NCBI GenBank assembly: GCA_024278595.1
Contig: JAJRSW010000011.1
Location: 1-64,000 of the forward strand
From: Fidelibacterota bacterium
GTDB lineage: Bacteria; Fidelibacterota; UBA8477; JABMPR01
Direction: 5' to 3'
Length of the DNA: 64,000 bases
Below the pieces are notes generated by a model. It was not told where the DNA came from, made no database searches, and saw only the letters and a list, made by a program, of their open reading frames with translations. Positions 8,813 to 16,392 of the stretch are shown here, piece by piece (position 1 is the stretch's first letter; the number at the start of each line of letters is the position of its first letter). A program made the position numbers and the translations under genes.

Positions 8813-10003
8813 CTAAGGGATCTGGTTCTTGAAAAGAGCTTCTGAAAAACGGGCTCCTGTTTCTGGATGTTCAAGCGAGCGCATGAGTACAAAATTATAC
8901 AGCAAGGGATTGCGATTCTGAATTTCTTCCAGTGCCGGGAGGATATCACGATCCAGATACCCGAGATAACTCAGGGCCGTATTGTTGTTCAATATGCTGA
9001 CAGCCGGTAGGGGGTAATCACTACCATACAGTAAACGGGTATGTAGATCAGGTCTGGCGAGGATGACCTTCAGGGGTGCTCCGATCTGGTTCAAAAGGGT
9101 CATGGCTGAAATATCAGCATAGAGTAAGTCCTGGTAATCAGGATCATCAAAAAGCCGCATGAATAATTTGAAATTTTCCACTTTTGCCTGTTGGGGATCG
9201 TCCAGGTCAATGGATTTGCCTGAGACTGCACAGTGGGCGACAATGACCTTTACACCAGCCTGCAGCGGTCTCCTTAGCAAAAGTGGATTCCCTAAATGCT
9301 GACGCCCCTGAGAGTCAATGGCCATCTCTGTGCCAGCGTGGCTGAGCAGGACCATATCCAGGCGCTGCATGGCCTCATAGAATGGGTCACACAATTCTGA
9401 TGCGGGATCGATCCCCATGGCATTGGGAACCCATTTAACCACACGGACACCCCTGGCGGCCCATTTTTCCAACGCCATCACAGCATCTTTCCGATAAGGA
9501 TGGATGGAGACAGCCGGCAGGATCTGACCTGCATATTGCTGACTCAAATCAACAACATATTGATTGGGAATATATATTTCGGTCTCAGCCTCATCCACTT
9601 CCCCATCTTCCAGATAATGCCGGTCCAGAGCCAGGGTCAATACCTGAAAAGGGACGGGTACCCCTGCCATTTGATAACGGAGACGCACAATATACTGTTC
9701 ATCCGCTTGTGTTTTATCCTCCACACCGGCTGCATCCAAAAAGTAATTAAAGCGGGTAAACTTGAAGGGATGGATCACTGATTGCATGTCGGCATGAATT
9801 TCTATGCCACTACTGCTGTTTCCCAAACCTATAATATGTACATGGTTATCCACCAGGGTATCCCCTTTGAAAGGGGCAAAAGCATCTCGGATGAGCACTT
9901 TGGCAGCCGGGCTGAAGTCTGCAGTACCTGCTTGATCGCTTTCGACCTGACAAGCCGTCATGATCAGAGTGATTATGACGCTGTTTAAAAATATTTTGGT
10001 TGA
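8813..10003 (-). CDS. Lipoprotein-anchored amidohydrolase (amidohydrolase_2 type)
   Basis: Start set at MSTKIFLNSVIITLIMTAC because the longer ORF overlaps the mdh terminator; DNHVHIIG, VVKWVPNAMGIDP, LLSHAGTEM, HCAVSG, LYGSDYPLP. Confidence 0.75.
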   Translation of the reverse strand, partial: STKIFLNSVIITLIMTACQVESDQAGTADFSPAAKVLIRDAFAPFKGDTLVDNHVHIIGLGNSSSGIEIHADMQSVIHPFKFTRFNYFLDAAGVEDKTQADEQYIVRLRYQMAGVPVPFQVLTLALDRHYLEDGEVDEAETEIYIPNQYVVDLSQQYAGQILPAVSIHPYRKDAVMALEKWAARGVRVVKWVPNAMGIDPASELCDPFYEAMQRLDMVLLSHAGTEMAIDSQGRQHLGNPLLLRRPLQAGVKVIVAHCAVSGKSIDLDDPQQAKVENFKLFMRLFDDPDYQDLLYADISAMTLLNQIGAPLKVILARPDLHTRLLYGSDYPLPAVSILNNNTALSYLGYLDRDILPALEEIQNRNPLLYNFVLMRSLEHPETGARFSEALFKNQIP

Positions 10004-10020
10004 CATAAGATCCGAAAAAT

Positions 10021-10051
10021 ATCGGGGAGTGTCAATCTGACACTCCCCGAT
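10021..10051 (-). terminator. Rho-independent terminator of mdh
   Basis: ATCGGGGAGTGTC-AGATT-GACACTCCCCGAT perfect 13-bp stem followed by ATTTTTC on the minus strand. Confidence 0.85.
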
Positions 10052-10068
10052 CAAACTATATCTGTGAG

Positions 10069-11004
10069 CTACAGTTTAGTTTCAGCAACCACACCAGCGA
10101 CATGCTCAGCCGTCACTTTCAAGGCCGCTTTCTCATCAGCATTCAATTTTACTTCAATGACCTTTTCAATTCCACCGGCACCGATCACGCAGGGAACACC
10201 GATAAATAAACCATCGATATCATACTCGCCTTCACAGAGGGCAGCACTGGGAATGATGCGTTTTTTATCCAGCAGGTAGGACTCAGCCATTTCAATGGCA
10301 GACTGGGCTGGACTAAAAAAAGCAGAGCCATTGCCCAATAATTTTACGATCTCACCACCGGCCATCCGGGTTCTCTTTTCAATGGCATCAAGCGTATCCT
10401 GATCCAGTAATTCTGTCACCGGTACCCCACCAATAGTAGCCAGGCGGGTGAGGGGAACCATGGTATCTCCATGACCACCAAGGACCAGGCATGAAACATC
10501 CCGGGTCGAATAACCGGTCTCCATGGCAATAAAGGCTTTAAAGCGGGCTGAATCCAGTGCTCCCGCCATTCCAATGATCTTATTCTTCGCGAATCCGGAA
10601 ACTTTATAGAAAGCATAAACAATGGCATCCAGCGGGTTAGAGACAACGATTACAAAGGCCTTGGGCGCATATTTCTTGACATTCTCAGCAACATTAGAGA
10701 TGATCTTCAAGTTAATACCCAGCAGGTCATCACGGGACATGCCTGGTCTACGCGGAACCCCAGCCGTGATGATCACCACATCTGAATCAGCAATATCAGC
10801 ATAATCACTGGTACCGGTGATGTTCACATCATAACCCTGGAGCGGGCGCATTTCCATCAGATCAAGGGCTTTGCCTTTTACCGATCCCTCAAAATCGGGG
10901 ATGTCAAGAATAACCACATCACCCAACTCCTTCTGAGCTGAGATTAGAGCCAGAATCTGTCCGATCTGCCCTCCGCCAATGAGGGTGATTTTTTTTCTAC
11001 TCAT
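10069..11004 (-). CDS. mdh: Malate dehydrogenase (LDH-like type)
   Basis: KITLIGGGQIGQILA, VVIITAGVPRRPGMSRDDLLGIN, VVSNPLDAIVY, GGHGDTMVPLTR. Confidence 0.95.
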   Translation of the reverse strand: MSRKKITLIGGGQIGQILALISAQKELGDVVILDIPDFEGSVKGKALDLMEMRPLQGYDVNITGTSDYADIADSDVVIITAGVPRRPGMSRDDLLGINLKIISNVAENVKKYAPKAFVIVVSNPLDAIVYAFYKVSGFAKNKIIGMAGALDSARFKAFIAMETGYSTRDVSCLVLGGHGDTMVPLTRLATIGGVPVTELLDQDTLDAIEKRTRMAGGEIVKLLGNGSAFFSPAQSAIEMAESYLLDKKRIIPSAALCEGEYDIDGLFIGVPCVIGAGGIEKVIEVKLNADEKAALKVTAEHVAGVVAETKL

Positions 11005-11114: not shown

Positions 11115-11420
11115 TCAAGGCTTTCGTTCAGCCCCGGTCTGTTTGCCCCCCTGGATAATCGCTTCCCAGATTTCTTTCACTACTGCAGGTGGTAGTCGTC
11201 CGGCTGATTTTTCGACAAGCTTTAGGATCAATTCTTGTTCTCGTTCCGGCGTAAATAGTGGGATACCTGCTTCCAACTTTAACCGGCGGATACTGATGGT
11301 TTCGGAAACCCGCGCCTGGATCAACTCCAGAATGCGGGCATCCAGGAGATCTATCTTCCTGCGGTGGTCTGATATCCTGTCTGACATATTATCAATATAG
11401 CCTGAAAGCTTACTTTCCAT
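11115..11420 (-). CDS. Chorismate mutase (AroQ type)
   Basis: RRKIDLLDARILELIQARVSETISIRRLKLEAGIPLFTPEREQELILKL... Confidence 0.85.
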   Translation of the reverse strand: MESKLSGYIDNMSDRISDHRRKIDLLDARILELIQARVSETISIRRLKLEAGIPLFTPEREQELILKLVEKSAGRLPPAVVKEIWEAIIQGGKQTGAERKP

Positions 11421-11677: not shown

Positions 11678-12847
11678 ATGGCTGAACGAACTTTTTTTGC
11701 AGAATGGGTGCTCCCCATCATCCATGGTCCGATCCACTTCGGCTTTGTGACCATTGCCAACGGGAAAATAATTGCCGTGGGTAAACAGAGTGATTTTAAT
11801 GGCAATAAACAGCAGGTGCAGGATCTTGGTTTTGCGGTTCTTTCACCAGCACTGGTTAACGCCCTGTTCCATCCGGACTATCCCGTAGCCGACCCCCAGA
11901 TAACCGCTCGGGGAAGTTTCCTGAACTGGCTGCATTCCGGAAAAAACTACACGCGGTTGAGTTCTAAACTTGAGGTGGAAAGTGATCTGCTCAGTGCCAT
12001 CAAGCGTTGTTATGATTATGGTACTGCGGCCATTGGGATCCGTACCAGGCATCCAGAGATCAGTCAACATCTTGAACATTCCGGACTCTATTCAGTTGTT
12101 TTCCAAATGCTCCGTGGTTTCCGGGAGGATAATGCTTTCGAGGTCTGGAATACGCGGGCCCAACTAAAAGACCGGGATCTGACACGCTTCTACCAGGCAG
12201 GTGAATTTCTGTTCAACCTCACTCCGGAAGTCTTCCGGAATATTGCAAACACCAGCGCCAGAACAGCTCTGCCCATCTCTTTCATGAAGGAAGAGGAGCT
12301 ATTTTTCAGGAAGGGTCAGGGGCGCATTTACCAGTACCTCCTGGGTCGGGGAGATATGGATTATCGCTGGCAACCGCCAGGTATGTCACCCCTGCGTCAC
12401 TTTTTAAGTCATGCTTTCGCCGCACAGAATACGATTCTCAGCCAGGTGATCAATTTGGAAGAGGATGAGCTTGATCTTTTGAATGATCAGCCCCAGACCT
12501 TCCATATGTGTCTACATCCCCGCTTTGACCGTCAATGGGAGTTGGGGACTGCTCCCGGCCAGATGATACGCGATAAGGGCTTCAATATCTGTCTGGGAAC
12601 TTTTGCTGAGCACATGGATATCCGGGCTGAAATGAGGTCTGCTTCAGCGGAGTATGGCTTTAAACCGGATGAGATCATTCGGATGGCTACCTTGAACGGG
12701 GCCAGGGCTTTAGGGCTTGAGGATAAGATTGGAAGTCTGGAAGCGGGGAAAGAGGCTAAGATCTTTTCCATCCGTTCTGAGACCAGTATCGTTGACCCCT
12801 ACAATATCATCCTGTTTACCAACGAACGCCTGCGGCAGGTGTCTTGA
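11678..12847 (+). CDS. Amidohydrolase-superfamily protein (ADAL / aminofutalosine deaminase-like scaffold) with degenerate metal-binding motifs
   Basis: Scaffold retained (IANGKIIAVG; FKPDEIIRMATLNGARALGLEDKIGSLEAGKEAKIFSI), but HxH and GTD-type motifs are replaced. Confidence 0.8.
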   Translation: MAERTFFAEWVLPIIHGPIHFGFVTIANGKIIAVGKQSDFNGNKQQVQDLGFAVLSPALVNALFHPDYPVADPQITARGSFLNWLHSGKNYTRLSSKLEVESDLLSAIKRCYDYGTAAIGIRTRHPEISQHLEHSGLYSVVFQMLRGFREDNAFEVWNTRAQLKDRDLTRFYQAGEFLFNLTPEVFRNIANTSARTALPISFMKEEELFFRKGQGRIYQYLLGRGDMDYRWQPPGMSPLRHFLSHAFAAQNTILSQVINLEEDELDLLNDQPQTFHMCLHPRFDRQWELGTAPGQMIRDKGFNICLGTFAEHMDIRAEMRSASAEYGFKPDEIIRMATLNGARALGLEDKIGSLEAGKEAKIFSIRSETSIVDPYNIILFTNERLRQVS

Positions 12848-12910: not shown

Positions 12911-13019
12911 TCGGTAAAAACCTAGTCTTTCTGACACGAACGTAGTGAATGGAAGAATCTCTGCCATCGGTAAAAACCTGGTCTTTCTGACATGAACGTA
13001 GTGAATGGAAGAATCTCCA
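12911..13019. repeat. Two tandem copies of a 56-bp unit
   Basis: tcggtaaaaacctRgtctttctgacaYgaacgtagtgaatggaagaatctc at 12911 and again at 12967. Confidence 0.9.
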
Positions 13020-15603: not shown

Positions 15604-16392
15604 CTACAGATCGTCCAGGGCTTCCCGGGCTTCGGCCTGAATGCTGCGATCGCTATCACTTTCTGCCGGGGCATTGATAGCCATAGTAAACCATTTTTCC
15701 GCTGCATCCTCATCATCCAATTTATCATAACAGTAGCCGATATAGAGCATATTGCGGAGGTCTTCTTGATCAAGCGCATGCGCTTGCTTGAAGTAGTCAA
15801 GGGCTTCCTCAAATGATGCTTGCGGAGGAGTAGCATAGATGATACTGGCGATCTGACGTTCGATCCAGGACAGGTCTGACAGCGCATAGTGCCAGCGACC
15901 CATGACATGATAATTAGCATCATCATCCGGGTCGTATTTAATGGCCAACAGGGTATGATCTCTCATTCCGTATGAATTCTTGATCTTCTGCTCAGTACCT
16001 TCTGCCTCACCGATCTGTCCGTGGTGGATGGCATACCATTTATGGGCAGCGGCACTTTTGTCATCGAGGGCCAGCGCTTTTTCAGCGTATTCCCGGCCTT
16101 TATAGAGGTAGGGTTTTTTATACTCCATATCATTGGGTTTGCGGTCGGCAAAATCAAAATATCCGCGACTGATCTTCCACAGGATCTCAACATTCATTTG
16201 ATCCAGGTCAAAGGCTTCCTCAAGCTGGGTCATGGTGAGATCATAATCTTTGGCCTCATGGGCAGCTTCCGCTTTCTCAAGCAATTCAGCTACCGGGTCA
16301 ACAATGGGATCTTCAGGTGTTACTTCGGCCTCTTGCGCATAGACAAAGAGTGCCAGCGTAAGCATCAGCAGCATTAATATGCTTTTTTTCAT
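15604..16392 (-). CDS. Exported TPR-repeat protein
   Basis: Signal peptide MKKSILMLLMLTLALFVYAQ, then TPR-like helices. Confidence 0.75.
   Translation of the reverse strand: MKKSILMLLMLTLALFVYAQEAEVTPEDPIVDPVAELLEKAEAAHEAKDYDLTMTQLEEAFDLDQMNVEILWKISRGYFDFADRKPNDMEYKKPYLYKGREYAEKALALDDKSAAAHKWYAIHHGQIGEAEGTEQKIKNSYGMRDHTLLAIKYDPDDDANYHVMGRWHYALSDLSWIERQIASIIYATPPQASFEEALDYFKQAHALDQEDLRNMLYIGYCYDKLDDEDAAEKWFTMAINAPAESDSDRSIQAEAREALDDL

Follow-up and report, generated by a model that had tools for sequence, protein, structure and literature searches.

The window analysed here, a 64,000-nucleotide stretch of DNA from a Fidelibacterota bacterium, carries an intact gene for a 389-aa protein (P0001) that has the fold of an amidohydrolase-type deaminase and lacks most of its canonical metal ligands (Table 1). 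The locus raises the question of whether such a gene is decaying, encodes an enzyme of altered chemistry, or is kept for some other purpose. We conclude that P0001 descends from a deaminase of the vitamin K pathway, is retained under strong selection in this marine bacterium and its relatives, and has almost certainly acquired a new job.

Fold and metal-ligand positions

P0001 is encoded by one copy per genome, and both its 389-aa frame and the five motifs quoted in the initial annotation are present in the sequence exactly as given. Its best Pfam match is PF01979 (Amidohydro_1; 51.2 bits against a curated cut-off of 25), with the best stretch restricted to residues 296-365, whereas ligand-bearing relatives match over nearly the full length. 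The AlphaFold2 model (pLDDT 91.6, pTM 0.91) is a TIM barrel with a small beta domain; Foldseek ranks subtype-III deaminases first (4f0r, E 2e-24), with best TM-scores of 0.80/0.78 to 7lkj (H. pylori aminofutalosine deaminase) and 0.81/0.79 to 4m51 (Nis_0429). P0001 shows no recognisable signal peptide in its sequence, and we therefore assume a cytosolic location.

Table 1. Positions of the features discussed, in the 64,000-nt window (residue numbers are those of P0001)
Feature	Position	Strand	Basis
Amidohydrolase-fold protein (P0001), 389 aa, single copy	11678..12847	+	ORF, Pfam, AlphaFold2 model
Beta-1 motif NALFHPDYP, residues 61-69	11858..11884	+	alignment
L63, at first HxH His	11864..11866	+	alignment
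H65, second HxH His	11870..11872	+	alignment
Beta-2 end, R122-T123-R124-H125	12041..12052	+	alignment
E176, replacing beta-4 His of PHSP motif	12203..12205	+	alignment
Beta-5: P199 for metal-ligand His, F202 for HxxE Glu	12272..12283	+	alignment
Beta-6: Q256 for active-site His	12443..12445	+	alignment
C278	12509..12511	+	
Beta-7: H280, gained, for Cys of CPRS	12515..12517	+	alignment
C305	12590..12592	+	
Beta-8: T308-F309-A310-E311-H312	12599..12613	+	alignment
C-terminal amidohydrolase hallmark EIIRMATLNGARALGLEDKIGSLEAGKEAKIFSI, well kept	12671..12772	+	sequence, Pfam search
Second amidohydrolase	8813..10054	-	Amidohydro_2, 41 bits
Malate/lactate dehydrogenase, upstream neighbour	10069..11004	-	PF00056/PF02866
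Chorismate mutase type II, divergent neighbour	11115..11420	-	PF01817, 58.6 bits
51-nt direct repeat, two copies	12911..13017		
PF21033 match	15604..16392	-	110.7 bits

We aligned 57 sequences: P0001 and 19 orthologues from its order, 20 relatives from the rest of the phylum and 17 from outside it (P0001 numbering is used throughout). The outside relatives carry H63, H65, H176 (in a PHSP motif), E202 (in HxxE), C280 and D309, with H199 and H256 in most. The second HxH histidine, H65, is invariant in all 57 sequences; the first is L63 in P0001, which reads L63-F64-H65, and Leu or Met in 20/20 sequences of the order. Position 176 is Glu in 20/20 of the order versus His in 16/17 outside relatives; the beta-5 His is P199 in 20/20, and position 202 (F202 in P0001) is never Glu there; the beta-8 Asp gives way to F309 together with a four-residue deletion, again in 20/20; and the beta-3 Glu (residue 144) is lost as well. 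Position 256 on beta-6 varies within the order (Gln in 16/20, His in 4/20). At position 280 every sequence of the order has His, and Cys stands there in 18/20 sequences of group B (see below) and 17/17 from outside. Three of the four canonical metal ligands are thus lost in every orthologue of the order, and the beta-6 active-site His in most; P0001 departs from the signature of subtype-III (mononuclear) AHS deaminases at HxH, the beta-5 His, the HxxE Glu, the beta-6 His and the beta-8 Asp.

The initial annotation had suggested that all metal ligands were lost, which is borne out for the first HxH His, the beta-5 His and the beta-8 Asp and overstated for H65. Its further claim that both later histidines were replaced holds throughout the order at beta-5; at beta-6 it describes P0001 itself, the position being variable among the orthologues. 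The string ISFMKEEELFF that it set against the usual iHlaEs.eE does lack the His; the beta-5 His position is P199, just before that string.

Elsewhere in the phylum, several states of the site coexist. The copy in genome G024 (family f4) keeps every ligand (HTHLE, SPHT, HLAES, LVHM, CPIS, GTDS); the f8 copies keep all canonical residues except E202; and the copies of f5, f9, f12 and f13 keep HxH and the beta-5 and beta-6 His, have lost E202 and H176, and have Glu in place of D309. Cysteines of strands 7 and 8 (C278, C305 and, in group B, C280) are near-invariant throughout the phylum clade and not outside it; they possibly face each other below the pocket.

Orthologues, descent and the futalosine pathway

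A full-length single copy is present in 20/23 genomes of the order, at 72-82% identity within the genus and 48-51% in two other genera, and the ligand losses are fixed in 20/20 orthologues across the three genera. The frames of the 20 genomes contain no stops, synteny is conserved, and across genomes P0001 shows a level of identity similar to its gene neighbours, for instance the S66 peptidase. Within the genus, pairwise dN/dS (NG86) is 0.03-0.08 in the least saturated pairs, with a median of 0.041 over 32 usable pairs. Given a dN/dS of about 0.04, intact frames and an intact predicted barrel, P0001 is not decaying.

Further single copies, 27-31% identical, occur elsewhere in the phylum, in families f5, f8, f9, f12 and f13 (group B) and in one f4 genome, G024; beyond the phylum, relatives at E <= 1e-30 were found in 20 genomes, and most of these relatives match nearly the whole profile. 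In a tree computed without the active-site columns, G024, f8, the other group-B copies and P0001's order form one clade (support 100/99), within which f8, the other group B and the order are one clade each, in no resolved mutual branching order. Because the branching among G024, f8, the order and the Asp-to-Glu group is not settled by the tree, the stepwise order of the ligand losses is something we infer.

The canonical relatives outside the phylum lie in mqn clusters: one locus (L129) comprises mqnA/D-type, mqnC-type, nucleosidase and P0001-family genes; another (L132) has mqnA/D-type and mqnC-type genes followed by the P0001-family gene; and a third (L127) has an mqnC-type gene, two small genes and then the P0001-family gene. 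PF02621 (MqnA/MqnD-type) was found in 9/9 tested outside genomes with canonical copies. Inside the phylum, the genes after the G024 copy encode UbiA, a flavoprotein and UbiE, and a PF02621 protein is encoded in the same genome; UbiE still adjoins the f8 copies in the same direction. These mqn-linked canonical relatives, including G024 within the phylum clade, establish descent from an aminofutalosine-deaminase-like enzyme and bear out the assignment of P0001 to the ADAL/aminofutalosine-deaminase branch in the initial annotation. P0001 scores 36 bits against the aminofutalosine deaminase equivalog NF006269 (cut-off 320), a threshold that discriminates poorly, since mqn-clustered relatives themselves score only 146-243 bits.

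PF02621 was found neither in P0001's own genome nor in any of the 24 tested phylum carriers other than G024 (0/20 and 0/4), and although MAG gaps may conceal mqn genes in single genomes, this is implausible for 24; continued service of P0001 in menaquinone synthesis was rejected on this ground. Phylum-wide, PF02621 occurs in 8/245 genomes, among which G024 alone has a P0001-family gene. MenB, of the classical route, scores over its cut-off in 9/9 tested genomes of the order and in the f8 genome G028. Since the futalosine pathway has been lost in the lineage, the enzyme has been orphaned.

The nine tested genomes of f5, f9, f12 and f13 have neither PF02621 nor MenB over the cut-off (0/9 for MenB), and may be without any menaquinone. 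Their copies, with HxH and the beta-5 and beta-6 His beside an Asp-to-Glu change, amount to another unusual form of the gene.

Copies with intact motifs, to which the initial annotation had looked as a possible refutation, were found at phylum distance in G024, which is one genome, 65% complete, with the gene split across two contigs; none occurs in P0001's genus, family or order. As all 20 sequences of the order share the losses other than that at beta-6, the G024 copy dates the change rather than refuting that annotation. Its choice of a pseudoenzyme or a changed chemistry over decay is supported by the retention of the gene, the low dN/dS and the confidently predicted, intact fold.

The remodelled pocket and its possible roles

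Of the signals that remain, the strongest is selection at the pocket mouth. The barrel rim is invariant in the order at 24/56 positions versus 70/260 in the remaining barrel region (Fisher p 0.024, a modest value for a rim defined from DSSP, not from measured exposure, as the positions at the C-terminal end of each of the eight strands or immediately beyond it); on the opposite face, 11/56 positions are invariant. New invariants specific to the order lie on the pocket face: D67, R122, T123, E176, H280, F283 and H312, of which D67 is invariant across 20/20 and R122 and T123 are invariant in the order, R122 being absent elsewhere. The pocket thus appears to have been rebuilt rather than abandoned, and the strand pattern suggests that H65, H280 and H312 may approach one another on the adjacent strands 1, 7 and 8.

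AHS deaminases normally work by means of a metal-activated water. Because three of four ligands and the HxxE Glu are gone, the single subtype-III metal would not be held in the usual way in P0001, and that mechanism would be unavailable. The reading we prefer, with a probability of roughly 0.55, is that P0001 is an orphaned aminofutalosine-deaminase-like enzyme that has lost its chemistry and been kept, with a rebuilt pocket, as a small-ligand-binding pseudoenzyme. The ancestor would have been an MqnX-type amidohydrolase of the futalosine route; the lineage would have dropped that route, the order having the classical-route MenB, and so left the enzyme orphaned; the catalytic HxxE Glu would then have been lost throughout the derived members, and P0001's order would in addition have replaced three metal ligands, namely the His that opens HxH, the His of beta-5 and the Asp of beta-8. 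With the barrel fold kept, the pocket mouth would have been rebuilt with D67, R122, T123, E176, H280 and H312 around the retained H65, and the putatively cytosolic pseudoenzyme would bind a small, probably anionic ligand as a sensor or allosteric partner, not as a deaminase. We favour ligand binding because the selection on the pocket mouth fits small-molecule binding, and we propose an anion because the Arg and His of the rim would suit one.

Several invariant polar residues, three His among them, would also suit a new catalytic site, and a pseudoenzyme and a changed chemistry are indistinguishable from sequence and predicted fold. P0001 might accordingly still be an enzyme, in which a metal or acid-base site for a different reaction has moved to H65, H280 and H312, perhaps with D67 or E176. 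All of them are invariant in 20/20 sequences of the order and sit at C-terminal strand ends or in the following loops, on the face of the active site; strands 1, 7 and 8, which carry H65, H280 and H312, are neighbours, and the rim exceeds the rest of the barrel in conservation. The neighbouring genes, however, yield no consistent pathway, and H312 could be structural, given that the group-B Asp at that position is nearly invariant; we regard the relocated site as rather unlikely, though it ranks second among the readings. The specific scheme in which, after loss of the futalosine route, the canonical site was swapped for one made of H65, H280 and H312 plus Asp, Glu and Arg on strands 1, 7 and 8, with a new reaction, is unlikely as well. 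If the site was indeed relocated, this would be a natural relocation of an active site within one barrel, with intermediates kept in one phylum. Were P0001 instead a structural or regulatory subunit that acts through protein contacts, as proposed for inactive amidohydrolase relatives such as the CRMPs (PMC4051505), the intact fold without canonical ligands would be explained and a precedent would be at hand; but a dispensable cavity should not be the better-conserved face, and there is no constant operon partner, which makes a pure subunit role improbable.

The losses themselves could be questioned as an artefact of alignment that hides a metal-dependent deaminase. H65 is kept, and HMMER aligns E206 with the catalytic Glu of 3lnp. 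E206 was rejected as the HxxE Glu: it is a downstream, +7 Glu common to all 57 sequences, the +3 Glu is absent, and the predicted strands end at equivalent residues in two models, that of P0001 and that of a ligand-bearing f8 relative of the same predicted fold. Moreover, group B, 27-31% identical and gapless at beta-5, marks where H199 belongs, the Asp site is fixed in the alignment by the conserved GT that precedes position 309, and the futalosine pathway is absent, so that a retained deaminase is very improbable. Recent decay or a pseudogene, which ligand loss alone might suggest, is hardly credible and was rejected in view of the stop-free frames, conserved synteny and dN/dS. We return, then, to a ligand-binding pseudoenzyme as the preferred reading.

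Related systems and genomic surroundings

P0001 resembles the MqnX type (H. pylori AFLDA, 7lkj/7lkk; Nitratiruptor Nis_0429, 3v7p/4m51) in its fold (TM about 0.8), in the N- and C-terminal parts of the small beta domain, in H65 and in the C-terminal hallmark; unlike that type, it is without the first HxH His, PHSP His, beta-5 His, HxxE Glu and beta-8 Asp, and its genome is without MqnA/MqnD. The CRMPs are amidohydrolase pseudoenzymes, of which CRMP-4 retains a cavity and two of its six metal residues (PMC4051505). P0001, itself under purifying selection, shares with them an intact barrel, the loss of most metal ligands and a kept cavity; the CRMPs, however, are animal neuronal proteins of the binuclear dihydropyrimidinase branch, whereas P0001 is bacterial, belongs to the mononuclear deaminase branch and changed along with the loss of a pathway. 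The P0001 family is therefore of the same kind as the CRMPs and not a member of their branch. The f5, f9, f12 and f13 copies share with P0001 one orthologous clade, single-copy status and the lack of futalosine genes, and differ in the residues kept at the site, as described above.

Literature searches returned no published description of the P0001 protein or family. AHS pseudoenzymes are already known; what stands out here is a visible probable cause, the parent pathway being gone, and the preservation of intermediates. Because the canonical ancestor type (G024) and half-way forms (f8, with Asp and without HxxE; f5, f9, f12 and f13, with Asp replaced by Glu) survive in the same phylum, the path from an enzyme to a retained non-enzyme or a new enzyme is testable with living orthologues. 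Labels such as "amidohydrolase", "chlorohydrolase" or "aminofutalosine deaminase" give a false picture of these Neomarinimicrobiota proteins.

Neighbouring genes were considered as a guide to function and set aside: they differ between clades, share no common theme and name no pathway. A malate dehydrogenase gene lies upstream of the P0001-family gene in nearly all examined loci of the order, and the chorismate mutase is its neighbour in the genus of the window alone, none of the order's other genera having it there. In f2, the P0001-family gene comes first in what appears to be an operon that also includes genes for a GDSL lipase and a TonB receptor. Group-B genes often adjoin a baeRF release-factor-like gene; in f5, f9 and f13 (G052) loci (L088, L089, L090, L091, L093 and L094), the group-B gene is followed by one of family 10, and f5 and f9 loci additionally have a cluster of TPR and MotA/MotB-like genes. 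Genes of the chorismate pathway turn up repeatedly next to family members (aroB/aroQ in f8, L086; DAHP synthase next to L126; the chorismate mutase in the window's genus), which may hint at a link.

Just downstream of the gene lies a 51-nt direct repeat, in two copies 96% identical at a spacing of 56, with no further copy in the window. A second, unrelated amidohydrolase in the window keeps its HxH (DNHVHI) near the N-terminus. A further gene matches PF21033, a family named for eukaryotic regulators of microtubule dynamics and here bacterial.
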